A stretch of DNA of 24,017 bases from a virus. The stretch lies in the IMG/VR virus record IMGVR_UViG_3300045135_002563, positions 1-24,017 of that record; one strand, written 5' to 3'. The notes beneath the pieces were generated by a model. It saw only the letters and a list, made by a program, of their open reading frames with translations. It made no database searches and was not told the DNA's origin. Made by a program: the position numbers and the translations under genes. Each line of letters begins with the position of its first letter. The first letter of the stretch is position 1. Below, one piece after another: positions 8,852 to 24,017 of this stretch.

Positions 8852-11332
8852 TTATAATCCATATGAGTTAACCTTTGTTCCGTTAACTACGTTTCTAATT
8901 CCACTTGTAACTTTTGCACCATCTAAGTAAACTGCCACTTTACCAGCATTTAAATCTTGTCTTAATCCTTGAATCTCTGTGAGTAAGGCTTCCATTGAAT
9001 CTTCTCCACCACCTTCATCATCACCACCGAACAATCCACCCAATGCCATACTAATACCACCTACCATTGATAACGCCATTAGACCAGGTAATGCAGTAAT
9101 TCCAGCTAATCCTAAAAACATAAGTGAACCAGCCAATGCAGTAATACCTGCTGCAAGTGATAATATCCCACCAGTCAATGGTACTACATTAGTAAGTGTA
9201 TCTTTTACTAAATTTAGTGTTTCAAATGGTATCATTCTTAATCCAATACCAAATAAAGTCAATCCTGCACCCATAATTCCAAGAGATGCTGCTGCTAACA
9301 TTATAAGTGGTGATAAGAATCCAAGTGGTGTTATCGCCAATCCAAATGCTAATAGTTGAGCTCCAAGTGATACGAAATTAAAATCTGCAGGTACTTGTGC
9401 TATTTCTTGTAATGCCTTTCCGAGAATAAACATAGCCCCAGAAATTAATATCATTGCTCCAGCCCCAGCTAATATCATTGGTCCTGCAAATGACATAATA
9501 CCACCAACTGCTGCCAGTGAAAGAGTTAATCCAAGAAGTGCTAATCCAGCAACTTTTAAAGTATCAAATCCAATACCTTGAAACTCTTGTAATGCTTTTC
9601 CAAGAATAAACATAGCCCCTGCAATCAATACAAGTGCTGCTGCTCCTTTAACCACATCGGTCATTTTTATCTTACTAATACTTTTTGTAAGTTTTGATGG
9701 GTCTCCTTTTGATGGACTTGGTGTTGTAGGTTTACTTATAGATGATGTTGCATCTCCTTTGGCTGGTATTTTATTTATAAATTTACCAAGTATAGGCATC
9801 TTTGATGCAATTCCTTTTACATCGAATCCCATTTGACCCATTGCAATTGCAGCACCACCAACTCCTTTTACAAATGAACCAAGTGGCCCTTTTGCAAGTG
9901 CAGACATGGTTTGTCCTATTCTATCAAATGTACTTACTTGTAAAGAACCATCAGCATTTAGTTTATCCATATTAGTGGTCATTTTCTGAAGTTCTTCAAC
10001 TGATAATCCTAATGCCTTTGCTGCTTCTCTCTTTTGGTAGATATCCATTTTGTTAAATTCTTCAACACCACCTAATTGGTTGATTGCTGATTTAACTGCT
10101 GAACCTATCTCACCTTCATATGCTAATCTTCTTGCCTGTTCGAAGTTAATATTTTTTCCTAATAATGCACCTAATTCAAGTTCTGAGGTTAAAGAGTTTT
10201 CAATATCTAATAAACCATCAGTAACATTTGTTAAGGATGACATCTCTAAACCGAGTTTCTTTGCAGCAATTGCTGCTTGAATCATATTCTTTCCACCATC
10301 TTTACCATACTCGGCAAACTTTTCAGTATTTGCTGCTAAATCTCCAGCAACATCTGCAGGGATTACTCCTGCTGCCTTTGATGCATCATAAACTAATTGA
10401 GCCATATCGGCACCTGCCTGTGCCGTTCCATCTCCCAATCTTGCGAACCCACCGATTAACTTAGCGGTTTCAGCACCACTAAGATTTAAATTAGTTGCTA
10501 ATAAGTTTGCGTTAAACTGTGCACCAAATGTTGATTGTTCAACTCCACCTAATTCTGTAGCCAATCCTTTTGCAACTGCAGTTGCATCTTTGAATACCAA
10601 CCCAAATACGGTTGCACTTACGGACATCTCATTGAAGAGTGAACCAGTTTCTCGTGCAGTTTGACCTAATTTATCTAATGCTATACCTGCACCTATCAAA
10701 CCTACACCTAAACCACCCATCACACCAGATGTTAGTGTACTGAATACATCTAATACTCCACCTAATGTACCTTTTATACCTTCAAGTACCTTGTGAGTAT
10801 TTTCCATTTGTGTCTTTTGGAAAGCGGTAAGGTTAGAGTAATCTTCTGCTAATGAATTTTGTTCTTTAAGAGTTTGTACAATTTTAGAATTACCATGAAT
10901 ACCTTCAGTAACCTTAGCCATTTCTTCATCTCTCATACTCATCAATGCTGCTTTTTGATGAATATCATCTCTTCCTAATTGAGATATTTGTTGATTAAGG
11001 TCTTGAACTTTTTGTAATGATTGTAATTTTTTACCAGTAAATCTATCATCACCTGCTGCTAAAGTTAATGCTGCTTTTTGGTTATCTTTTAATGAAGCGT
11101 ACGCACCTGATATAGAACCGAGACTCTGTTCCATATTTGAGTATTCATTAAGTGTTTCTTGATTTACCTTTTTTAATTCTTTTGCAAGCTCAACTATTTT
11201 GTCCTTTTGTTCATCAACGTATTTATTTATTTTTAATTGGCTTAAGACGGTAGATTCTTTTGCACGTTTAATTCGTGCCTCTGCATTCTCTATCTCTTTT
11301 AGAAGTCCTAATCTATTTTTTTCGTCAGCCAT
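8852..11332 (-). CDS. Tail tape-measure protein, 826 aa
   Basis: The first 200 residues are charged, helical and coiled-coil-like. A segment rich in small residues follows (GVMGGLGVGLIGAGIAL near 204-219), then a conserved-looking alpha-helical middle, a proline/serine hinge (about 532-550), and a long hydrophobic region of several membrane-type helices (560-770). The extreme C-terminus, VAVYLDGAKVTSGIRNV, is typical of tape-measure proteins. The family spans the tube lumen, sets tail length and may insert into the host membrane. At the usual 1.5 Å per residue the length would give a tail near 120 nm. The string AMFILGKALQE occurs twice, 60 residues apart. The start has a good AAGGAGT. It follows the chaperone-like pair, as in most tailed phages. 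Confidence 0.88.
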   Translation of the reverse strand: MADEKNRLGLLKEIENAEARIKRAKESTVLSQLKINKYVDEQKDKIVELAKELKKVNQETLNEYSNMEQSLGSISGAYASLKDNQKAALTLAAGDDRFTGKKLQSLQKVQDLNQQISQLGRDDIHQKAALMSMRDEEMAKVTEGIHGNSKIVQTLKEQNSLAEDYSNLTAFQKTQMENTHKVLEGIKGTLGGVLDVFSTLTSGVMGGLGVGLIGAGIALDKLGQTARETGSLFNEMSVSATVFGLVFKDATAVAKGLATELGGVEQSTFGAQFNANLLATNLNLSGAETAKLIGGFARLGDGTAQAGADMAQLVYDASKAAGVIPADVAGDLAANTEKFAEYGKDGGKNMIQAAIAAKKLGLEMSSLTNVTDGLLDIENSLTSELELGALLGKNINFEQARRLAYEGEIGSAVKSAINQLGGVEEFNKMDIYQKREAAKALGLSVEELQKMTTNMDKLNADGSLQVSTFDRIGQTMSALAKGPLGSFVKGVGGAAIAMGQMGFDVKGIASKMPILGKFINKIPAKGDATSSISKPTTPSPSKGDPSKLTKSISKIKMTDVVKGAAALVLIAGAMFILGKALQEFQGIGFDTLKVAGLALLGLTLSLAAVGGIMSFAGPMILAGAGAMILISGAMFILGKALQEIAQVPADFNFVSLGAQLLAFGLAITPLGFLSPLIMLAAASLGIMGAGLTLFGIGLRMIPFETLNLVKDTLTNVVPLTGGILSLAAGITALAGSLMFLGLAGITALPGLMALSMVGGISMALGGLFGGDDEGGGEDSMEALLTEIQGLRQDLNAGKVAVYLDGAKVTSGIRNVVNGTKVNSYGL

Positions 11333-11341
11333 TTATACTCC

Positions 11342-11551
11342 TTATTTAGAATATTTTTTGATGAGTGCATCAAGTTCAGCTTTTTCTTTTCTGATTTTCT
11401 CCATTTTATCAGTTAATTCTTTTGGAGTACCAGCTTTTCTAGCTCTTTGGATAAACTTATCATGAGTGTTTTTTTGCAACCCATTAAAGAATGAATCACT
11501 AAACTTTTTGGCTGTACCAAATAATCCTTCGTTTGTTTTTTCTTTTGACAT
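11342..11551 (-). CDS. Small basic hypothetical protein preceding the tape measure, 69 aa
   Basis: This short lysine-rich helical protein (MSKEKTNEGLFGTAKKFSDS, then a coiled-coil-like KMEKIRKEKAELDALIKKYS) is not recognised. Coding is supported by a strong AGGAG (11558-11562) six bases upstream of the ATG, a promoter-like box before that, and a terminator just above it. It is thus the first gene of the transcription unit carrying the tape measure, 9 bases away. A role as a tape-measure chaperone or virion component is plausible but unproven. Confidence 0.7.
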   Translation of the reverse strand: MSKEKTNEGLFGTAKKFSDSFFNGLQKNTHDKFIQRARKAGTPKELTDKMEKIRKEKAELDALIKKYSK

Positions 11552-11591: not shown

Positions 11592-11623
11592 AAAAAAAAA
11601 GTGAGGAATTTTACTTCCTCACT
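11592..11623 (-). terminator. Intrinsic terminator after the chaperone-like overlapping frame
   Basis: A perfect 9-bp stem (plus-strand arms 11600-11608 and 11615-11623) with a 6-base loop is followed, in the direction of transcription, by nine T residues. The TAA of the upstream frame lies in the loop, so the hairpin includes the end of that coding region. Confidence 0.9.
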
Positions 11624-11871
11624 CTTACGTTTGGTCCTCTTGATTTTTTAGAAGATTTATCGTATTGTTCTTTTTCCTTCTTCTTGGCATCTATTAATTT
11701 CTTGAAATAGAAACGTCTCCAATGGATGGGCATATGATAAACATCTCCCCAAGTAAATCCATTACCATAGTTAACCATTTCCCAAATTTGGGTATGAAGT
11801 TGGATACTATAATCACTCGGAAGGGTAAAAAAACCCAACCCCAAAGGGAATATCGAGAGCCTCCGATTCAC
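11611..11871 (-). CDS. Overlapping downstream frame, candidate frameshift extension of the gp26-like protein
   Basis: This frame has no ATG at its 5' end. The longest possible start is a GTG at 11871 inside the preceding gene, with no convincing ribosome binding site. Its protein-like sequence begins right after a T7 run: TLPSDYSIQLHTQIWEMVNY, then GNGFTWGDVYHMPIHWRRFY and a lysine-rich tail. The frame is offset by +1 (equivalently -2) from the upstream gene, which ends five codons past the T run. This is the G/GT layout of tail assembly chaperones, lying as expected just before the tape measure. A fusion would add 71 residues to 251, giving 322 aa. Independent initiation at GTG or TTG is the alternative. 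The 3' end is the loop of a strong terminator. Confidence 0.65.
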   Translation of the reverse strand: MNRRLSIFPLGLGFFTLPSDYSIQLHTQIWEMVNYGNGFTWGDVYHMPIHWRRFYFKKLIDAKKKEKEQYDKSSKKSRGPNVRVRK

Positions 11872-12580
11872 CCGTGAGGTCCGATGTAAATGTGTACCTC
11901 ATGTCCATATCTGGACTTATTGATTTAACGTAGTTTCTTAATGCCCTTGTATCCAAAGCCAATAAGCCGTTTGTAACAAATGAATTAATGAACCCTCTAT
12001 CTGAGTTACCATCTACTTCTTGTATCATGTACTTTAAACGAGTGGTTACTTCGTTACTTACATCTGATTTACCTTTTTGTAATCTTTGTAACGCCTGAGT
12101 TTCAGCCGTTATATCTTGTTCATCTTTATGGGTGAGTAATTTAAACTTAACTTTTTTCTTTGTTTTTGGTAATTCAAACTCATATCTGTTTTCTCTATTC
12201 AATAAGTTTTCATCAACATCCTTTGTTTGGATTTTAGCTAAATCAATTACTGTTTTTTGTTGTTCACCAGAGAATGGGTCTGTAACTTCTACTTGATAAT
12301 CTGAACCATAACCTAAAATTCTTGTTGCTAATAAGATTGCGTTTTTATCACCTACTACAATATCATTAATATCAATATCCTTATCAACTACAACTGATTC
12401 AAATAACTTATCAAGTACCACCCCCTTTCTTATCAAATTTTGAGATGCAAGTATATCTTCTTCTTTTGCAGTCATATACTTGATTTCTACTCTACCCTTT
12501 GATAACGGGTTTGATTCTGGATATACTTTACCTTTTGATGGTAATTCTATCACTTCTGTTGGAAATTCGTAATTTGCCAT
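11813..12580 (-). CDS. T4 gp26-like baseplate/tail assembly protein, 255 aa
   Basis: The N-terminus MANYEFPTEVIELPSKGKVY, followed by GRVEIKYMTAKEEDILAS, matches the T4 gp26-type baseplate family (SKGxxY, then a beta-strand, M-T-x-x-E-E). The middle (FKLLTHKDEQDITAETQALQ) and the end (PDMDMRYTFTSDLTGESEAL) fit as well. I start at 12580 because the 25 residues that a further upstream ATG would add come from AT-rich leader and terminator-flanking sequence. The start has only a weak ribosome binding site. In T4, gp26 is described as a baseplate hub subunit. Here, tube before it, overlapping frame and tape measure after it make a tail assembly chaperone role equally likely. It has its own promoter-like box below a terminator. 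Confidence 0.75.
   Translation of the reverse strand: MANYEFPTEVIELPSKGKVYPESNPLSKGRVEIKYMTAKEEDILASQNLIRKGVVLDKLFESVVVDKDIDINDIVVGDKNAILLATRILGYGSDYQVEVTDPFSGEQQKTVIDLAKIQTKDVDENLLNRENRYEFELPKTKKKVKFKLLTHKDEQDITAETQALQRLQKGKSDVSNEVTTRLKYMIQEVDGNSDRGFINSFVTNGLLALDTRALRNYVKSISPDMDMRYTFTSDLTGESEALDIPFGVGFFYPSE
11825..11836 (-). other. Candidate frameshift (slippery) site
   Basis: On the minus strand the upstream gene reads GGG TTT TTT TAC CCT. The seven T residues (11833-11827) let a Phe tRNA on TTT slip +1 (or -2) onto another TTT without mismatch and continue as ACC CTT CCG into the downstream frame. The zero-frame stop follows five codons later (11815-11813). A GGAGG (11864-11860) lies 26 bases upstream, probably too far to act as a classical stimulator. 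RNA polymerase slippage on the T run would have the same effect. Confidence 0.55.
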
Positions 12581-12690: not shown

Positions 12691-13179
12691 TTAGAATTCT
12701 AAGATTGCGTAATCATAGGATAAAGTCAATGTGATTTCTGCTGGGTCATTAGAAGCCCAATCTAAATCGTTGAACACTGCGTTATTAATGAACGCACCTT
12801 TTAGAGTCCATTGTTCAATCTTATCACCAACTGGTCCTAACATATAGAAATTAACATCTTTCTTATAGAAATCTGCGTATCCATCTCTACCTGTTAAAGA
12901 TTCGTGAGAAGTTCTCACCCATTCCATTACTGATTGTGCACCACTTGGTACAATTGGGTCATATAATGAAATTTCTACATCTTGCCACTCACCTTTTCCT
13001 TTGAGTTTTCTCTTAACATTAATATGGTCAAGAGTTACAACCTCAAACTGAATTGAAGGTCTGTTGGCTGTTTTGATAAGATATGAAGGTATACCATCGA
13101 TTTCCATGATGAATCTGTTCTTCATCTTCGGTTCGAAGTTGGTATAAAACATATCGTTAAATTCTAATACTTCTGCCAT
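12691..13179 (-). CDS. Tail tube protein, T4 gp19 family
   Basis: Length (162 aa) matches T4 gp19 (163). Characteristic segments are FEPKMKNRFIMEIDGIPSYL at the N-terminus, VKRKLKGKGEWQDVEISLYD, the helix VMEWVRTSHESLTGRDGYAD, and the C-terminal strands LKGAFINNAVFNDLDWASND then EITLTLSYDYAIL. The protein polymerises as stacked hexameric rings inside the sheath. It follows the sheath gene at 49 bases, has a strong AGGAG before its ATG, and is ended by an intrinsic terminator, fitting high-level late expression. Confidence 0.92.
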   Translation of the reverse strand: MAEVLEFNDMFYTNFEPKMKNRFIMEIDGIPSYLIKTANRPSIQFEVVTLDHINVKRKLKGKGEWQDVEISLYDPIVPSGAQSVMEWVRTSHESLTGRDGYADFYKKDVNFYMLGPVGDKIEQWTLKGAFINNAVFNDLDWASNDPAEITLTLSYDYAILEF

Positions 13180-13228: not shown

Positions 13229-15568
13229 TTATGCTGAGAACGATGCTCCAGTCGGTAGAATGTTGAAGTCAATTACAATGAATTCAGCAGTCTTAGTTGG
13301 TTGTAAAAATATTTGACCTGCTAAGATGTTTCTATCGATTACATCTGGAGTGTTGTTTGTCTCATCCATAACAACTCTAAATGCATATAACCCTTGTCTT
13401 TGTTGTACACCTTCTAAATAAGGTTGTACTGTATTTATAAATCTACTTCTTGTTTGTGCAGTATTTTGTTCGAATATTAAGTATCTTGAAGTACTTGCAA
13501 CAAACTTCTTAACTTTGATTAATAATCTTCTTACGTTGATTCTATCAAGTGCAGATGCTTTATCTTGTAAAGTTTTCTGTCCGAAAGCAACAATTCCTTC
13601 GCCTGGGAACTGAGCAATTGGGTTAACTTTAGATTCATATAAAGTATCTCTTTCAGCGTGAGTCAATCTATTCAATACAGAAACTGCTCCTACAATTCCA
13701 CCTCTATTTAAACCAGCCGGTGCGAACCATTCTGCTGCGATTCTATCGTTAGCAGCATAGATACCAGGTAGTAATGTTGATGGTGGTACTGCAGTTAGTT
13801 TGTTTGTATTTGAATCAATTGTTTTGACCCATGGATAGTAAGCACCTGCGTAGTTACTATCTAAAGCCTCTGCTTGAGTAGTTGCTTGTCCGATTGTATC
13901 ATTTTGACCAGTTAAATCACCGATGAAGAATGCATCACTTCTAGCTTCTACCATATCAACTACTTTATCAAACACATAAGAGTGTAATCTTCTTACCACA
14001 CCAGGTGCAGATACCAAGTTGATATCGAAATCATCTGGATTAGATACTGAGTTGATTGCTTTTACATATGCAACCGAACCACTTGAAGCTGAGTTTGATA
14101 AGTTAAATCCTTGTGAGTTACCTGCTGATATTCCAGCACCCAAGTGAGGTCTTACTGTTGGAGCACATCCATCAAACCCGCCTTGGAAGGCAACTGAAAA
14201 TTGTCTCTTAGCGATATCTTTCGCTTTTACATCAGAATCAGTTGAACCAGTTAACGCATAACTTAAACCAACACCATCAATGTTTCCATCGAATGCAAAT
14301 ACTACGTTTGAACCAGTAGATGGACTTGCTGGTATAGGTGCCAAGTAATTATGATTATCTAATTTTACAACTGCAGTTTCTAAATCAATACCTGAGAAAG
14401 TTGTTTTACTTCCTGCAGTGTTTGAATCTGAACCTGTACTGAATACCACTGCTGGTAATTCAGTTGGAGTAGTAAGATTGACTGGGTTTTCATACTCTTT
14501 ATGACCAAATGGTCCTGCAGTTACTGGATACCCATCTAATACTTCTACTCTGATGTATTTTGAGTTATTTCTATAATCTCCGTTTTCAGATTGTTTTCCG
14601 TTTGCATCGATAGTAAGGTTTCTATCACCAATTACTCTTGCGATGTATTGTGGAGATGCAGGGTCTAAGTTAACATTGTTAAATGTTTCTAATACTGATT
14701 TTCTCTTATCAGTATCACCAAATTTTCTAACTGCTATAGAGAACGTTGCGTAATCTGTAGAGTTTGAAGAACCTGCTTCTTTAATATTGAAAATAGAGAT
14801 TTTAAATTCTTTATTTGTATTTGTACCATCACCTAAAGTGTGGAATCTGAATAAGTTATGTCTTTCACCAGAAATTAACTGAGAAACGATGTAAGGAGTA
14901 GTGGCGTGTTGTACATCATTCGAAAAGTTATTTGCTGGTAATGGTTCTACTTCAACTTTTGAACCACTATCAGATATATAAGTTCTGTAATCATATGCTG
15001 CACTTTGGAACCAGTTATATGCATATGCTATTTTACTTCCATATGGTGATTCACCGAATACATCTGCTATATCATTTCCTGCAGTGTATAAAACTGAAGC
15101 AGAAACTTCAAGGGAACTTGTCCCATCTACTGCTACATTTATTGAAAATGCTGATGCTGATTCTTCTCCAGCAAGTACTGAACCAGAGAACCCTACTGAT
15201 GCATCTGAGCCACTTGTGTTAAATAAAGTACTAACTACTTTTTTCCCACCGTTATCTGCTGAACCACTAATTTTTATTGCAAGACCTTCAGTTTGAGTAT
15301 ACCCACCGATGTGACCAACTCTAACAACTGTTACTGTTCCTGCTTCTCTTAAATAATTTTGAACGGTATATCCTGTATAGTAAGAACCATCAGGTGTACC
15401 GAAGATTTCATCGAAATCTGCTTGAGTGCTTATTACGGTTGGAACGAAAGCAGGCCCTTTTTTAGTAGGTCCTATGATTGCTGCTCCTATTTCACCAATA
15501 CCTTGAGGTAAAAATGAAAGGTCATTCTCTCTCGTAAATACACCAGGTGATACAATTTTTTCTGCCAT
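13229..15568 (-). CDS. Contractile tail sheath protein (gp18-like), 779 aa
   Basis: The N-terminus has the sheath signature VSPGVFTRENDLSFLPQGIG, then GAAIIGPTKKGPAFVPTVIS. This is followed by QADFDEIFGTPDGSYYTGYT and YLREAGTVTVVRV. The C-terminal domain carries DRINVRRLLIKVKKFVASTS, RSRFINTVQPYLEGVQQRQG, then NTPDVIDRNILAGQIFLQPT and a final EFIVIDFNILPTGASF, typical of the part that grips the tube and neighbouring subunits. At 779 aa it is larger than T4 gp18 (659), the excess lying in the variable, Ser/Thr/Gly-rich middle domains exposed on the tail surface. A strong TAATAGGAGT precedes the ATG. It heads the sheath-tube unit. Confidence 0.95.
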   Translation of the reverse strand: MAEKIVSPGVFTRENDLSFLPQGIGEIGAAIIGPTKKGPAFVPTVISTQADFDEIFGTPDGSYYTGYTVQNYLREAGTVTVVRVGHIGGYTQTEGLAIKISGSADNGGKKVVSTLFNTSGSDASVGFSGSVLAGEESASAFSINVAVDGTSSLEVSASVLYTAGNDIADVFGESPYGSKIAYAYNWFQSAAYDYRTYISDSGSKVEVEPLPANNFSNDVQHATTPYIVSQLISGERHNLFRFHTLGDGTNTNKEFKISIFNIKEAGSSNSTDYATFSIAVRKFGDTDKRKSVLETFNNVNLDPASPQYIARVIGDRNLTIDANGKQSENGDYRNNSKYIRVEVLDGYPVTAGPFGHKEYENPVNLTTPTELPAVVFSTGSDSNTAGSKTTFSGIDLETAVVKLDNHNYLAPIPASPSTGSNVVFAFDGNIDGVGLSYALTGSTDSDVKAKDIAKRQFSVAFQGGFDGCAPTVRPHLGAGISAGNSQGFNLSNSASSGSVAYVKAINSVSNPDDFDINLVSAPGVVRRLHSYVFDKVVDMVEARSDAFFIGDLTGQNDTIGQATTQAEALDSNYAGAYYPWVKTIDSNTNKLTAVPPSTLLPGIYAANDRIAAEWFAPAGLNRGGIVGAVSVLNRLTHAERDTLYESKVNPIAQFPGEGIVAFGQKTLQDKASALDRINVRRLLIKVKKFVASTSRYLIFEQNTAQTRSRFINTVQPYLEGVQQRQGLYAFRVVMDETNNTPDVIDRNILAGQIFLQPTKTAEFIVIDFNILPTGASFSA

Positions 15569-16013: not shown

Positions 16014-17297
16014 TTAACTCTTAGTAAATGTTAATGTACTACTATAAGCACTTCTTAAACCGTTTGTTCCATACTGTCTTACCCTAGCGTAGTAAGTACC
16101 ATTTGCAGGTGGAGTTCCATATACATATGAGGTTGCACTCCATTCCGTTTCGTTCACTTCTGTTGATGCGAAGTTTGATACGGTAGATACTTGTAAATCA
16201 TATACATCATTTGTACCATCACCACTCCATGAAAGTGTATTTATTGCGTTATCCCATGCTAATGATGTTGGTGCACTTGGTGCAGATTCATCTGTATGTG
16301 TGTTACCACCCTTGTTGTGTGTTACATATCCATTTACTAAGTATGTATCTACATCCTCTACATTAATAGATACAATCTCCACATTTTCCTTTTCTACAAC
16401 GATTGTTTCAATATCAATTTCATTAATTCCATCGTTATGTCTTTTTATTAATTTATCTCCAACTTTTAATCTAAACATTTCTTTAAATTTATAAAGTTGT
16501 TCTTCCGAATCCCAAACTAACATTGGGTGTTCTGATGTTGCTCGTATTTCACCATTATTAATATTGTAATAAGATGATGCAAACGAGAATATAATATCTT
16601 TTACGCTTACTTTACAGTATTCTCCACTTATATCTGAACTATTCCATTCAAAGAAATCTGCATCTGAATCTAAATTTAGATTTGTAGGATTGTATCCTAA
16701 TAACTCATCTCCTTCTTCTAAATCTCCAACTTGAGATATACTTCCATCATACATAATAATTGGAGAATCCGCGGTTAAACAAAGTGCAGATGCATTGTTA
16801 TCATATGAATCAACTGTATAAACAGTTTTATCTCTGTTTGAACCATGATTTGTTGCATGGTCATTAAAAGTATCATCAAATACTACTCGTACTGTATGTG
16901 ATGCAACTGTCTGTAATACCGTTTGGTCAAGATTATCAGTATTATCTGTCATTGTAGATGCATCGAAAGTTGCGGTTTCACCACTATTTGTGTTTACACT
17001 TAGTTTACTACCCGCAGGTACAGACCATGTAAAGTTATCAGCCTGATTTGCTATTTTACTTTGAAATAATGAACCAGATACTGTAAATCCTAATCTATAG
17101 GTTTCTGTTGTGTTTTCAACTACATATGTAAATCCTGCAACACCACCAACCGTATCTATACCGAAGTCATCTAAGGATACTTCTGTTCCTGCACTACCAT
17201 TAATTGCATTTAAAGAAACACCACTACCAGTTGCGGTAGTTCTTACTGCTGTTCCTAAATTTTTTAAACTGAGAGTATCTCCTGAACTTCTAGCCAT
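16014..17297 (-). CDS. Tail/fibre protein with embedded Hint (intein-like) domain and C-terminal FnIII-like domain, 427 aa
   Basis: Three parts are visible. Residues 1-172 are a Ser/Thr/Gly-rich virion-type region (SSGDTLSLKNLG, SLNAINGSAGTEVSLDDFGI, GFTYVVENTTETYRLGFTVS). Residues 173-328 are a Hint domain: Cys173 in CLTADSPIIMYDGSISQVGD, block B ATSEHPMLVW with T254 and H257, and the terminal VDTYLVNGYVTHN with H327-N328. Residues 341-425 resemble fibronectin type III (SAPTSLAWD, TLSWSGD, GTYYARVRQYGTNGLRSAYS). No homing endonuclease is inserted. The residue after Asn328 is Lys, not Cys/Ser/Thr, so canonical splicing is unlikely and peptide-bond cleavage is expected, as in bacterial intein-like domains. 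AGGAAA precedes the start. Confidence 0.85.
   Translation of the reverse strand: MARSSGDTLSLKNLGTAVRTTATGSGVSLNAINGSAGTEVSLDDFGIDTVGGVAGFTYVVENTTETYRLGFTVSGSLFQSKIANQADNFTWSVPAGSKLSVNTNSGETATFDASTMTDNTDNLDQTVLQTVASHTVRVVFDDTFNDHATNHGSNRDKTVYTVDSYDNNASALCLTADSPIIMYDGSISQVGDLEEGDELLGYNPTNLNLDSDADFFEWNSSDISGEYCKVSVKDIIFSFASSYYNINNGEIRATSEHPMLVWDSEEQLYKFKEMFRLKVGDKLIKRHNDGINEIDIETIVVEKENVEIVSINVEDVDTYLVNGYVTHNKGGNTHTDESAPSAPTSLAWDNAINTLSWSGDGTNDVYDLQVSTVSNFASTEVNETEWSATSYVYGTPPANGTYYARVRQYGTNGLRSAYSSTLTFTKS
16314..16781 (-). other. Hint/bacterial intein-like domain within the tail protein (Cys173-Asn328)
   Basis: Coordinates cover the codons from the N-terminal Cys to the C-terminal Asn. The 156-residue mini-intein size, the TxxH block B and the C-terminal HN dyad are all present. 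The +1 residue is Lys, followed by GG. Expected chemistry is N-terminal thioester cleavage and/or Asn cyclisation, releasing the two flanks without ligation. Confidence 0.8.
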
Positions 17298-18308: not shown

Positions 18309-20009
18309 TTATTTAATTTTTGATTCTAAATCTTCGATTCTTTTCAGAAGTTCTTTGTTAGATTCGATTAGTAAAGCTACTATCTTTTCGTATTTTACCG
18401 CTTTATATCCACTTTCTCTTGTTTCTACAATCTCTGGTAATACTTTTTCTATTTCTTGTGCAATTACACCAACATCATGTTGACCTTTGAATACTTCGTG
18501 TTTATCATTCCAATCAAAAGTATATCCACCGATTTGTTTTAGTTTTTCGTTTGGATTTTGGATTGGTGTAACATTATCTTTATATCTTTCATCCGAAGAA
18601 GCGTATGCAACAACATCTTCACCAACATTAAGTGTTTTTGCTATACCAACACCACCATCAACTACAAATGCACCTGTTGTTTTTGCATCTGATTGTGTTG
18701 TATCAGATATATCTGTTGGTTTATCAATCTGTACTTTTCCGTTTGTACCATCGAGGTAAAGGTAAGAGGCAACACCACCCGAACCATCATCTGATTGTAG
18801 AACTACGTTACCATCATTCGTGTTATTTCTAATAATAAGATTACCAGTACCATTTGCAAGGAACATATTTGTTCCGTTGTGATATAATTGGGCATCGTTA
18901 TCAGAACCGAGTCTTATTTCTTTACTATCTTGCCATTCTGTATGAGCAGATACATCGTCATTAGCGTTAGCTCTAATGAATCCACTTGAATCAATGCTAT
19001 CTAATGTTTGTGCATTACCACCATCAGCACTTGTAATGTAATTCTGAGATTTTACGAATGCAGTTGTAGCGATTTGAGTACTATCATCAGTTAAATCTGC
19101 CGTAGGTGCAGTTGGTGTGCCTGTGAGAGCGGCGTTTGTAAACATTGTAGATTTACTCTCGTTGGTAACGCTACCCAATCCTACATCACCTGCGGTAGTT
19201 CCTTGTGCTCTTAATGAAGCAAACGTACCATCAGCATCAAAGTTATCACCAGTTGCAAATGCGGTTGAGTTGAATGCATTTGAACCTAATTGTCTTGTTC
19301 CTATTACATTTGAACCATTTATTGTTAGTACATCTGTTTCAGAGTTTTGAGCAGATAATCCACTAAGTGTAAGTGTTGTTCCACTAATACCAGCTCCACT
19401 TCCACTTATAGGTTTACTAAAAACTATGTTTTCAGTACCACCATCTAATCTTAAATATTCAGTTAAACCACCACTACCATCATCACTTCTAAATATAAGG
19501 TCTTTATCATCTTCATTTAAATCAAAATAAGTATCACCATTATTAACAGAGTATATTTCTAAATCATTTTGATTACCTATTCTTAATTTTATACCATCTT
19601 TGATTTTTAAATGAGATTGAGAAGTTGAATATACAACTGCATCTGTATCAATTTTTAGATTTCCACTCCAACCACCAGTACCGACATATATATCTTGAGT
19701 ACCATCACCAGCAAGTTGAAACACTGTGGTGTTGTTCATTTTGAAGTGCATATCATCTCCACTATTAATAATACCATCATTACTACTAATAAAGAATCCA
19801 CTAGCGGTTACTCTACCTGTTAATTCTATTGAACCAGTAGTTACAGAATCAGTAGTTACAATGTGTTCAATAGAATCAGAACCATCGTTCTTTTTGAAGA
19901 ATATTCTACCATCATAGGTATTTACGGCCAACTCACCGAGAGCCAAATTACTGGTAGAAGGAACTTTACCAGTTGTTGCAGACCTTTTTAATTTTATCGT
20001 TTGTGCCAT
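18309..20009 (-). CDS. Tail fibre protein with S74 intramolecular chaperone, 566 aa
   Basis: The N-terminus MAQTIKLKRSATTGKVPSTS, then LALGELAVNTYDGRIFFKKN, is the common virion-attachment module of many marine phage fibres. The middle consists of beta-rich repeats, twice containing D-D-G-S-G-G-x-x-x-Y-L-x-L-D-G. The last 96 residues are a Peptidase S74 (endosialidase-type) chaperone: SSDERYKDNV at the self-cleavage site, TFDWNDK, GVIAQEIEKVLPEIV, then KAVKYEKIVALLIESNKELL and a terminal coiled coil. After assisting trimer folding, the module cuts itself off before the Ser of SDER. It follows the larger fibre gene by 11 bases. Its last 131 residues are a near-duplicate of that gene's end. Confidence 0.9.
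   Translation of the reverse strand: MAQTIKLKRSATTGKVPSTSNLALGELAVNTYDGRIFFKKNDGSDSIEHIVTTDSVTTGSIELTGRVTASGFFISSNDGIINSGDDMHFKMNNTTVFQLAGDGTQDIYVGTGGWSGNLKIDTDAVVYSTSQSHLKIKDGIKLRIGNQNDLEIYSVNNGDTYFDLNEDDKDLIFRSDDGSGGLTEYLRLDGGTENIVFSKPISGSGAGISGTTLTLSGLSAQNSETDVLTINGSNVIGTRQLGSNAFNSTAFATGDNFDADGTFASLRAQGTTAGDVGLGSVTNESKSTMFTNAALTGTPTAPTADLTDDSTQIATTAFVKSQNYITSADGGNAQTLDSIDSSGFIRANANDDVSAHTEWQDSKEIRLGSDNDAQLYHNGTNMFLANGTGNLIIRNNTNDGNVVLQSDDGSGGVASYLYLDGTNGKVQIDKPTDISDTTQSDAKTTGAFVVDGGVGIAKTLNVGEDVVAYASSDERYKDNVTPIQNPNEKLKQIGGYTFDWNDKHEVFKGQHDVGVIAQEIEKVLPEIVETRESGYKAVKYEKIVALLIESNKELLKRIEDLESKIK
18312..18704 (-). repeat. C-terminal chaperone module shared by the two fibre genes (copy 2)
   Basis: This encodes the segment starting TTQSDAKTTGAFVVDGGVGI and ending with the S74 domain. 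The partner copy lies at 20024-20410 in the upstream fibre gene. The junction segment (KTTGA, VDGGVG, AKTLNVGED, VAYASSDER) is almost identical in the two proteins, while the sequences further upstream are unrelated. Confidence 0.85.
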
Positions 20010-20020
20010 TTTCTAAAATT

Positions 20021-23000
20021 CTATTTAGATTTTAGTTCTTCTATTTCTTTTTGGAGTTCTTTTATTGATTCAATTAATAGTGGAACAAGTTTTTCGTATT
20101 TTACTGCTTTGTACCCATTATCTCTCGTATCTACGAGCTCTGGCATAACTTGTTCTATTTCTTGAGCAATAACTCCGTAATCTCTACCTTTATAAATATC
20201 TTGTTTTTCTTCATTCCAATCGAATGTGTTACCACTAATCTGAGATAATTTCTCAAGTGGGTTCTCGATTGTTTGAATATTATCTTTTAATCTTTCATCT
20301 GAAGATGCATATGCAACAATATCTTCACCAACGTTTAGAGTTTTGGCAACACCAACACCACCATCAACAATTAACGCACCAGTTGTTTTGGAAGTTGATT
20401 GTGTAGTTGAATCTATGTTTACTGCTGATGAGAATGATTTAGCACCACTAAATGTTTGTGTACCACTTAGGTGAGCAGTGTCTGAATCTAAGTATGCGGA
20501 TGCAATTGCAGTACCTTGCCAAGTACCAGTTCCAATTGTTCCAACAGTTGTAATTGAAGTTGCACCAGTAAATCCTGTCTTATCTGCATCATTAAGAACT
20601 ACTTGTGATGAACCACTAATTACATTACGTCCATTAACTTCTAAGAATGAAGAAGTTAATTGTGATGAACCAGATATTATACCAATTCCACCAAATAATA
20701 CTTCATCAGTAATTGAACTACCTAATGATACTGAAGTACCACTAATTGTTATACTTGAGTTTGTTAATTGAGAATTTCCAATACCAGTTACCTGTGCAGA
20801 TGAACTAAATACTCCTTCTGCATTTAACTTTGTAAGTACATTTGCATCAAAGTTTGTAATATCATTTGCGTTTACTTGACTTGAACCACTAAATACACCT
20901 AATGAATTTAAGTAATTTAAGTTATCTGTGTTGTTATATTTATCTAAATCAGAAATTTGAGATTCTGTAATAGTTACTTGTGAAGAACCACTAATTACTC
21001 CTAATGAGTTAAGGTGGTCTGTATTATCTGAATCAGTATAGAATGTAAGTTGACTTGAACCTGAAACTACACCTGTTGGTAAATTACTTACAATATTACC
21101 AGTTGTAATAACTTCGGCTTCACTACCTAATTTTCCTGCCTTCCAATAATCATTAGTTGAATCCCATTTAAATGAACCACTTGTTGTTGAACTACCAGTA
21201 CCGTCTTTTACTAAGATACCTCCTTCAGTAGCAGAACCACCAAAGTTAAGTTCTAATATATTATCACCAATGTTAACATTGTTTGTTGAAGTATAAGTTG
21301 TTGTTCCAGCAACACTTAAATCTCCACTAATAGTTACATCATCATTGAATGTTTGATTACCAGAATGAGAAGAACCACTTAATACTGCCTCTGCATCTAA
21401 TTTAGTTTTTACATTTGAATCAAAGTTTGTAACATCGGTTGCATCTACTTGTTCAGAGCCAGATATTACACCAGTACCTCCGAATAGTACTTCATCAGTA
21501 ATTGAACCACCTAATGATACTGAAGTTCCACTAATGGTAATTGATGAATTCGTAAGTTGTGAGTTACCAATACCAGTTACTTGAGCCGATGCAGAAATTA
21601 CACCTTCCGCGTTTAACTTTGTAAGTACATTTGCATCGAAGTTTGTAATTGTATTTGCATTTACTTGTGCAGATTCTGAAATTAAACCTTCCGCGTTTAT
21701 TTTATCAAGTACGTTTGCATCGAAGTTTGTAATTGTATTTGCGTTTACTTGACTTGAACCACTAATTACGGTATTTGTATTTAATATATCAACTATTTGT
21801 TGTGAACCACTTAAAGTACCAGTTCCACCAAATAGAATTTCATCAGTAATTGAACTACCCAATGATACTGAAGTACCACTTATGGTAATTGCTGAGTTTG
21901 TTAATTGAGAATTTCCAATATTCGTTACTTGTGCAGATTGTGAAATTACACCATCACCACCTGAACTAAGGAATGAAGAGGTTGCAGTTTCGATTTGGTC
22001 TAATCTACTATCGAATGAAGAAGTTTCTAATTCTATTCTATCTAATCTTCCATCCGCAGAGCCTGTAAATGTATTAAGATGTGAAATATCAGTTGAAGAA
22101 CCTGCTGCTGCTTGTACTCCTTCTGTAAAATGTGTTGAGCCTGTATCTAAGTTTATAGTAACATCACCAGTTACACCACCACCACTTAAACCAGTTCCTG
22201 CTGCTACTGCAGTGATATCACCACCACCTGCACCTGCAATTGCAGAGTTTACTGCGGCTGCGGTTGGTACTACAGTTGAATCACCAAATATAGAACCAGT
22301 AACATTATAGAATGCTGCAGTTCCAAGTGAGCCCGTATGTGTTTCAAGTTGGTCTAATCTATCATCAAAAGATGATGTTTCTAATTCTATTCTATCTAAT
22401 CTACCATCTGCAGAAGAAGTGAATGTATTTATTTCTCCTAAACTTGTATCTATAGAACTTGTTTCGAGTTCGATTCTATCTAATCTTCCATCAAATGATT
22501 CTGTAGTAGTGTTTAGTTCTCCTAAACTTGTATTTATAGAACCAGTTTCTAATTCTATTCTATCTAATCTTCCATCAAGAGAACCAGATTCTGTTTCTAA
22601 GTATCCTAATCTTGAATCAAGTGAAGAACTAAAGGTTGTAAATCCATCTGTACTTGAAATGGTTATTTGACCTGAACCACTAACTACATCATCTCCGTTT
22701 GGTCTTAGTACTGAACCTGAGATTACTCCATCTCCATCTGGTCTTAGTACTGAACCAGAAACAATTCCATTTGTAGCGATTATTTGTCCTTTTAATCTTG
22801 TTGCTTCAACTTCAGTAAGATTATCTAAATATGTACCCGTTTTAAAAGATATTGTATCATCACCAACATTTGGATGAATAGTACTTGTTGCAATAACAGA
22901 TGCAGTTATATCACCAGTTCCAAAGTTTACATCTTTGTTTACTAAATGAGCTACTGTCTGAGATGAACCACTAACTACACCAGTTGGTAAATTAGCTATC

Positions 23001-24017
23001 GTTTGAGCTGAACCACTAACCAATCCTGCGGGTTTAGATGTTACGTTTGCGAATGTTACAGAATCCGCAGATACGCCTGTTAAGTTCGAACCATCTCCAT
23101 AGAATGCCGAAGCAGAAACATCTGCATCAAATCTAAATTCTTGTTCTGTATGATTCCATTGTAACGATTTGTTAGCACCATCGATTGTTAAACCTGCACC
23201 GTTTGCTGCTGCAGAATCTGCTGCTCCACTCGCTACTAAAATATTTTTATCCTCAACATTTAATGTATTTGTATTAAGTTGAGTTTGTGTTCCTTGAACT
23301 GTTAAATTACCTAATATTGTTACATCTGCTGAATTAAGTGTAATTGCAGTATCAAATGATTGTGTAAATAAATTTAATCTTGAAGTATCATCTGATTCAG
23401 ATATAAATCCAAATGCTGTTATTTGTTCTGAACCACTTAATACTCCATCTTCATTTGGTCTTAGTACTGAACCACTAACAACATCATCACCATTTGTATT
23501 CAGATATGAAGAGGTTGCACTTTCAATTTCACCAAATCTTGTTTCAAATGAAGAAGTGGTTGATTCGATTTCATCTAATCTCCCATCAAAAGAAGATGTA
23601 GTAGAATTTATATTTGTAATAGAAACATCAACAGATGAACTAAATGTTGAAAATCCATTTACTGAACCTATGTTTACTTGTGCAGATTGTGAAATTACAC
23701 CATCACCATTAATTTCTAAGAATACACTTGTTAATTGGTCTGAACCCGATACCACACCACTTGGTAAATTTGTTTCAATTTGGTCTGAACCAGATATGAC
23801 ACCAGTTGGTAAATTAGCTATGGTTTGTGAAGAACCACTTACAACACCCGTAGGTAAGTTTGCTATTGTTTGTGAAGAGCCACTAACAAGACCAGTTGGA
23901 AGTGAGTCAATAACTTGTTGTGAACCACTTAATACTCCATCTCCGTTTGTATTGAGATATGAAGAAGTTGCGGTTTCAATTTGGTCTAATCTACTATCGA
24001 ATGATGCAGTTACAGTA
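20021..24017 (-). CDS. Giant repetitive tail-fibre protein with S74 chaperone, 5' end outside window
   Basis: The frame is open to the right edge, giving 1331 residues so far. I do not accept the GTG at 23755 as the start, because the same repeat pattern continues upstream of it. The protein is built from repeats: a 15-residue NLPTGVVSGSSQTIA unit, many [IV]SGS[SAED]Q segments, helical SFDGRLDRIELETSS units, an ITNFDANVLTKLNAEGV unit, and three copies of a ~45-residue block ending GSSITDEVLFGGTG. Such alternation of beta repeats and short coiled coils suits a long trimeric fibre. The final 94 residues are an S74 self-cleaving chaperone (SSDERLKDNI, GVIAQEIEQVMPELV, KAVKYEKLVPLLIES, coiled coil). 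Host-receptor binding is inferred. Confidence 0.9.
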   Translation of the reverse strand, partial: TVTASFDSRLDQIETATSSYLNTNGDGVLSGSQQVIDSLPTGLVSGSSQTIANLPTGVVSGSSQTIANLPTGVISGSDQIETNLPSGVVSGSDQLTSVFLEINGDGVISQSAQVNIGSVNGFSTFSSSVDVSITNINSTTSSFDGRLDEIESTTSSFETRFGEIESATSSYLNTNGDDVVSGSVLRPNEDGVLSGSEQITAFGFISESDDTSRLNLFTQSFDTAITLNSADVTILGNLTVQGTQTQLNTNTLNVEDKNILVASGAADSAAANGAGLTIDGANKSLQWNHTEQEFRFDADVSASAFYGDGSNLTGVSADSVTFANVTSKPAGLVSGSAQTIANLPTGVVSGSSQTVAHLVNKDVNFGTGDITASVIATSTIHPNVGDDTISFKTGTYLDNLTEVEATRLKGQIIATNGIVSGSVLRPDGDGVISGSVLRPNGDDVVSGSGQITISSTDGFTTFSSSLDSRLGYLETESGSLDGRLDRIELETGSINTSLGELNTTTESFDGRLDRIELETSSIDTSLGEINTFTSSADGRLDRIELETSSFDDRLDQLETHTGSLGTAAFYNVTGSIFGDSTVVPTAAAVNSAIAGAGGGDITAVAAGTGLSGGGVTGDVTINLDTGSTHFTEGVQAAAGSSTDISHLNTFTGSADGRLDRIELETSSFDSRLDQIETATSSFLSSGGDGVISQSAQVTNIGNSQLTNSAITISGTSVSLGSSITDEILFGGTGTLSGSQQIVDILNTNTVISGSSQVNANTITNFDANVLDKINAEGLISESAQVNANTITNFDANVLTKLNAEGVISASAQVTGIGNSQLTNSSITISGTSVSLGGSITDEVLFGGTGVISGSEQVDATDVTNFDSNVKTKLDAEAVLSGSSHSGNQTFNDDVTISGDLSVAGTTTYTSTNNVNIGDNILELNFGGSATEGGILVKDGTGSSTTSGSFKWDSTNDYWKAGKLGSEAEVITTGNIVSNLPTGVVSGSSQLTFYTDSDNTDHLNSLGVISGSSQVTITESQISDLDKYNNTDNLNYLNSLGVFSGSSQVNANDITNFDANVLTKLNAEGVFSSSAQVTGIGNSQLTNSSITISGTSVSLGSSITDEVLFGGIGIISGSSQLTSSFLEVNGRNVISGSSQVVLNDADKTGFTGATSITTVGTIGTGTWQGTAIASAYLDSDTAHLSGTQTFSGAKSFSSAVNIDSTTQSTSKTTGALIVDGGVGVAKTLNVGEDIVAYASSDERLKDNIQTIENPLEKLSQISGNTFDWNEEKQDIYKGRDYGVIAQEIEQVMPELVDTRDNGYKAVKYEKLVPLLIESIKELQKEIEELKSK
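20681..21952 (-). repeat. Three dispersed copies of a ~135-bp block in the fibre gene
   Basis: Copies lie at 20681-20815, 21470-21604 and 21818-21952. Each encodes NSQLTNSSITISGTSVSLGS followed by SITDEVLFGGTG, with a few substitutions. Differences are mostly synonymous or conservative, pointing to intragenic duplication kept similar by selection or recombination. Confidence 0.85.
23726..23905 (-). repeat. Four tandem 45-bp units in the fibre gene
   Basis: Units at 23905-23861, 23860-23816, 23815-23771 and 23770-23726 encode variants of NLPTGVVSGSSQTIA. The first two are nearly identical in protein; the last two have drifted (SGSDQIET, SGSDQLTS). Single further copies of the unit occur around 23060-22960 and 21080-21040. 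Confidence 0.9.

Follow-up and report, generated by a model that had tools for sequence, protein, structure and literature searches.

A conserved UUU_Y site and a predicted +1 frameshift in the probable tail assembly chaperone gene of a T4-like phage lineage

We analyzed a 24,017-nucleotide stretch of viral DNA (IMG/VR record IMGVR_UViG_3300045135_002563, positions 1 to 24,017; hereafter the window) and found, by comparison with related genes, that it very probably codes for a short and a long version of a tail assembly chaperone, the latter of which would arise by a +1 slip near the 3' end of a gp26-like gene. It further seems likely that frameshift direction changed within this single chaperone lineage while the fused product stayed the same: most members would use +1 at UUU_Y (UUU then a pyrimidine) and a nested clade -1 at A_AAU_UUC. 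Across the relatives the pair would be obtained by +1, by -1, by a separate start or from two paralogues. As far as we searched, UUU_Y as a +1 signal of a large aquatic lineage is new, and so is the switch to -1; in the literature covered, which mostly excluded subscription papers, we found no report of a +1 site in this T4-like lineage.

The chaperone locus and its neighborhood

On the minus strand the genes run in the order: sheath, tube, gp26-like gene, ORF2, a 69-aa ORF and tape measure (Table 1). The gp26-like gene thus comes after the tail tube gene and before that of the tape measure, as is the case for TAC-N/TAC-NC. In a profile search its 255-aa product matches PF12322 (E 4e-9, 36.8 bits versus a curated cut-off of 24.5). 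The gene ends in GGG TTT TTT TAC CCT TCC GAG TGA, and the +1 frame is free of stops through the T7 run, its upstream open stretch covering 83 nt before the zero-frame stop. A preliminary description of this DNA had correctly located the run, its GGG TTT TTT TAC context, the nearby zero-frame stop and the frame offset. It had also held that the second frame has no ATG; ORF2 of the window does have ATGs, at 11778 and 11733, but both lie within the conserved domain. The predicted junction peptide of the fusion starts GFFTLPSDYSIQ.

Table 1. Features of the chaperone locus and adjacent tail genes in the window
Feature	Coordinates	Strand	Remarks
Zero-frame gene, gp26-like (TAC-N), 255 aa	11813..12580	-	PF12322; phrog_150
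Slip site GGG TTT TTT TAC, T7 run	11827..11833	-	UUU_U permits +1 re-pairing of tRNA-Phe
Zero-frame stop TGA	11813..11815	-	four codons past the two Phe codons
+1 frame (ORF2, TAC-C domain), 71 codons and stop	11611..11826	-	conserved; TAA at 11613-11611
Predicted +1 fusion (TAC-NC), 322 aa, junction GFFTLPSD	11611..12580	-	predicted, with TTTT read as one Phe step
69-aa ORF between fusion and tape measure	11342..11551	-	no significant family in the profile search
Tape measure protein	8852..11332	-	phrog_4372, E 7e-7
Tail tube gp19	12691..13179	-	PF06841, E 4e-9
Tail sheath gp18	13229..15568	-	PF04984; phrog_23

A short ORF between chaperone and tape measure is also present in the phages immuto, Mel-JY01 and SP-15. 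Elsewhere on the minus strand of the window are: a 427-aa protein (16014-17297) with an intein-like HINT region at residues about 180-379 that ends in VNGYVTHN, scoring 27 bits with PF14890 and 25 bits with PF07591, both below the cut-offs, which makes an intein in a phage structural protein possible; two fibre-like proteins (18309-20009 and 20021-24016) with similar C-termini, ending in Peptidase_S74 self-cleaving chaperone domains; a Phytanoyl-CoA dioxygenase-like gene (2153-2908; PF05721, E 7e-20) by the tail genes; and a polynucleotide kinase phosphatase-type HAD protein (1637-2095; PF25109, E 1e-30).

Conservation of the second frame

The window is AT-rich and contains 15 T7 runs, 7 on the minus and 8 on the plus strand. 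The run, which the preliminary description had taken as a signal, is hence not rare by itself, and conservation becomes the real test; it exceeds chance. A first scan with the 255-aa protein recovered 80 viral loci at 47-74% identity. In nearly all of these TTT TTT T(AC/GG) CC(T/A) lies close before the stop, which in the relatives follows the run by a few codons, and the +1 frame stays open for about 60-75 codons further. Together with scans from divergent members and named phages this yielded 192 distinct genes. An ORF2 HMM assigns the second frame to +1 for 181 of them and to -1 for 4; a further 6 are truncated and one (RM378) is too diverged. As these relatives share descent, the counts are neither independent nor to be read as probabilities. 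RM378 itself keeps the T7 run and an open +1 frame, with a second frame beyond the reach of the HMM.

The isolates Mel-JY01, immuto, SP-15 and GXN1 share the +1 offset; the scan from SP-15 matched only SP-15 itself; immuto (a Flavobacterium phage, L083) has its second chaperone domain left unannotated. Isolate hosts in the +1 lineage are Flavobacterium, Microcystis and Bacillus. Nine further genome-bin contigs, mostly Bacteroidota, carry the second frame in +1, and these bins together with immuto suggest a Bacteroidota link for a lineage whose metagenome contigs have no known hosts.

When 81 relatives are aligned by codon, the run's two Phe codons are TTT in 78 and 79 genes respectively, against a background in which TTT makes up 77% of Phe codons in these genes. 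These two codons and the Pro two codons on account for three of the four top columns in synonymous conservation among 73 columns. Beyond the zero-frame stop, the first 10 codons have a pN/pS of 0.32 in the +1 frame in the near group, whereas the two alternative frames reach 0.95 and 2.65; by this measure these codons evolve as protein in the +1 frame alone. The conserved stretch of ORF2 begins right at the run (FF[GT]LPxxYxxxLHxxIF), and the +1 frame is under purifying selection ahead of its first ATG. For 17 relatives, a +1 stop lying upstream limits entry to the seven codons from run to zero-frame stop; in three of these (L026, L030 and L033) the next 45 codons are free of ATG, GTG and TTG. 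Comparison of the relatives thus shows that ORF2 is read from a point ahead of any start codon. The conserved offset, the UUU_Y site and protein selection in the +1 frame all support the proposal of the preliminary description that a programmed frameshift joins the two frames.

The slip signal

An in-frame UUU_Y just before the zero-frame stop is conserved in all 181 relatives whose second frame is in +1, and it is the sole cognate +1 re-pairing site common to all of them. The sites are: TTT TTT T in 142, TTT CTT T in 31, TTT CTA T in 5, TTC TTT Y in 2 and TTT TTT C in one. Relatives with an interrupted T run have in its place either a slip-capable UUU_Y or a canonical -1 heptamer. UUU_U is also known as a +1 site from release factor 2, where a small minority of species have it instead of CUU_U (PMC5009743).

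Other candidate sites were set aside. Slippage at the conserved CCU Pro codon would move CCU to CUN without re-pairing; the conservation of this codon fits dual coding. A CCC_C slip is possible in GXN1 alone and a CUU_U slip in the style of release factor 2 at TTT CTT T sites, while UUU_Y alone covers every relative. A lambda-type X_XXY_YYZ heptamer with a -1 ORF2 is not found in the window, where ORF2 is in +1. Upstream of the site GGGG and AGGG are enriched among the relatives, while Shine-Dalgarno-like AGGAG/GGAGG shows no enrichment, and RNA structure downstream of the +1 site is weak (mean z about -1.1). Given these two results, we found no strong stimulator.

Alternative readings of the offset

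The preliminary description had left the shift as +1 or -2, and in the window alone the sequence does permit both. In a -2 shift, which phage Mu uses (PMC5009743), the tRNA-Phe that reads the run's second UUU would move back two bases and insert an extra Phe (GFFFT). A T7 site lets either shift re-pair on UUU without mismatch, and the retention of both Phe codons as TTT above background would suit this reading. However, 38 of the 181 relatives (those with TTT CTT T, TTT CTA T or TTC TTT Y) offer no cognate -2 re-pairing at TTT|TTT and yet keep the offset and UUU_Y, and we regard a -2 shift as unlikely. The same broken runs bear on transcriptional slippage, in which a shifted mRNA would arise on the T run: RNA polymerase can slip on homopolymers, but seven Ts is short for this, and the offset persists without an intact run, which makes this explanation highly improbable. 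As general mechanisms, both -2 and transcriptional slippage are disfavored by these variants, which leaves +1 as the favored slip for the family. Assemblies often err at homopolymers, and a sequencing error or a decaying gene might mimic such an offset, but an offset that recurs in 181 distinct genes across many metagenomes as well as in the four isolates is almost impossible to explain in this way.

That ORF2 is instead a separate small gene, translated by internal initiation or translational coupling, appears quite improbable. Annotators have treated Mel-JY01 and the cyanophage gp51 in this manner, that of S-PM2 starting from an ATG 2 nt past the gp26 stop; many relatives have an ATG at ORF2 codon index 17 or about 31-33; and the distant LR756511 (L086) has its own ATG, a plausible separate start for the second frame. 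Against this, the first 45 ORF2 codons contain no ATG, GTG or TTG in 35 of the 181 relatives, the 15 codons past the heptamer lack an ATG in 29 of 71 cyanophage-type genes, and protein selection acts on codons ahead of the ATG. A Shine-Dalgarno-like sequence precedes the first ATG in 4 of 132 cases, a weak piece of evidence because Bacteroidota-type genes use few of them. Apart from the very distant LR756511, no member of the family offers ORF2 a well-placed start of its own, and the +1 fusion remains the preferred reading.

A likely nested switch to -1

In L073, L214 and L215 the site reads AAT TTC TTC TGG and the second frame is in -1, with a canonical heptamer, A_AAT_TTC, exactly there. In a tree built without the site they group together with support, next to +1 members and within the +1 family (SH-aLRT 99 and 91; a quick tree with no inferred root and long branches elsewhere). 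No consistent downstream structure was found in the three.

The wider PF12322 family

In S-PM2 and HTVC008M there is a single PF12322 gene, ending in T_TTT_TTC or T_TTT_TTT, whose -1 frame leads into the small annotated gp51. A U_UUU_UU(C/U) -1 heptamer is present in all 71 distinct readable cyanophage-type genes. Directly downstream of these sites folding energy is low (mean z -3.1, 80% under -1.5), which is not seen in the flanking windows. No common structure emerged from a consensus fold over the whole set of cyanophage sites, as hairpins vary from subgroup to subgroup, while the single-sequence z-scores are strong. Cyanophage and pelagiphage gp51 (L108, 1691-1864; L109, 1867-2004) are annotated as separate genes despite the joining heptamer, and the annotated start of HTVC008M gp51 trims conserved codons.

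Seven Straboviridae phages including T4 have two PF12322 genes each, a short gp26 and a gp51 with a C-terminal extension, while six named slip-type phages and eight viral contigs, which may be fragments, have one apiece. Profile comparisons give 93.7% for the full fusion versus cyanophage gp26+gp51, 88.6% for ORF2 of the window versus cyanophage ORF2 and 97.9% for cyanophage ORF2 versus the T4 gp51 C-terminus; the direct comparison of ORF2 of the window with the latter is weak (11.7%). The sequence profiles thus relate ORF2 to cyanophage gp51 and, by way of that protein, suggest a link to the C-terminus of T4 gp51.

Structure and chaperone function

The two domains were modeled apart. Within the ORF1 model (pLDDT 90), residues 127-223 gave as best VIA-align matches 3KLU (YqbN, Z 5.0) and 2OB9 (HK97 chaperone, Z 4.9), the next being at 2.3; a Z of about 5 is modest, below 8. 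The title of the 3KLU entry is silent on function, and we take YqbN to be a phage tail chaperone. Foldseek alone returned no significant match for the ORF1 model. The ORF2 model has three helices (pLDDT 78) and found no match in a PDB search. The structural matches and the place before the tape measure, along with the PF12322 family, support the assignment of the gp26-like gene as a probable tail assembly chaperone, in line with the preliminary description. Its remark that this role is not commonly annotated in the T4-like family needs a correction: Vladimirov, Gautam & Davidson (2022, Virology 566:9), as cited in PMC10885494 and PMC12846349, identified T4-like chaperone genes with a short-plus-long arrangement in some of these phages, and PMC12846349 cites the same work for poly-T -1 signals in their TAC-N genes. 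That these genes are gp26 and gp51 by name is our own reading.

Proposed mechanism and its implications

In our model, most ribosomes would stay in the zero frame and produce the short TAC-N, like T4 gp26. A minority would slip on one of the two adjacent Phe codons of UUU_UUU_U: the peptidyl-tRNA-Phe would detach and re-pair one base forward on UUU, or on UUC in relatives with UUU_C. Reading on in +1 would add a mostly helical domain of about 70 residues to give TAC-NC, like T4 gp51. If lambda gpG/gpGT is a guide (PMC5009743), binding of the tape measure would fall to the part common to both forms, and recruitment of tail-tube subunits to the extension.

A 2016 review held the tail-chaperone frameshift to be widely conserved 'except T4' (PMC5009743). 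Under the model, a large, mostly aquatic T4-like lineage retains it, run forward at UUU_Y with neither a stop codon in the A site nor strong RNA structure. Together with its neighbors, which show -1 sites and duplicated genes, it forms a natural series in which to ask why direction flips while output is held. Annotation would also need correction, as the second domain is missed or named a hypothetical protein.

Comparison with known systems

In lambda, gpG/gpGT likewise comprise a short and a frameshifted long chaperone encoded ahead of the tape measure, but by a -1 shift; the likeness is one of arrangement. The Listeria +1 shifts invoked as a chaperone precedent in the preliminary description are in fact in capsid and tail-shaft genes (PMC5009743). 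A parallel in the kind of shift is the G-T tail chaperone of the archaeal myovirus HSTV-2, a haloarchaeal virus, which very likely uses a +1 shift (PMC5009743). In prfB (release factor 2) a +1 P-site slip occurs on CUU_U, in a minority on UUU_U, as proposed here (PMC5009743); there it is accompanied by a stop codon in the A site and an upstream Shine-Dalgarno, whereas here a sense codon (UAC, UGG, UUU or CUU) follows. The Kyanoviridae gp26 and small gp51 (S-PM2, HTVC008M) share with the window an overlapping, related C-terminal frame by the tape measure and a poly-U site, but shift by -1 at U_UUU_UU(C/U), mostly with a hairpin downstream. The T4-like chaperones share the PF12322 family and the coexistence of a short form with a long form carrying a C-terminal extension: T4 and other Straboviridae achieve this with two genes, the window with one gene and a predicted +1 slip.
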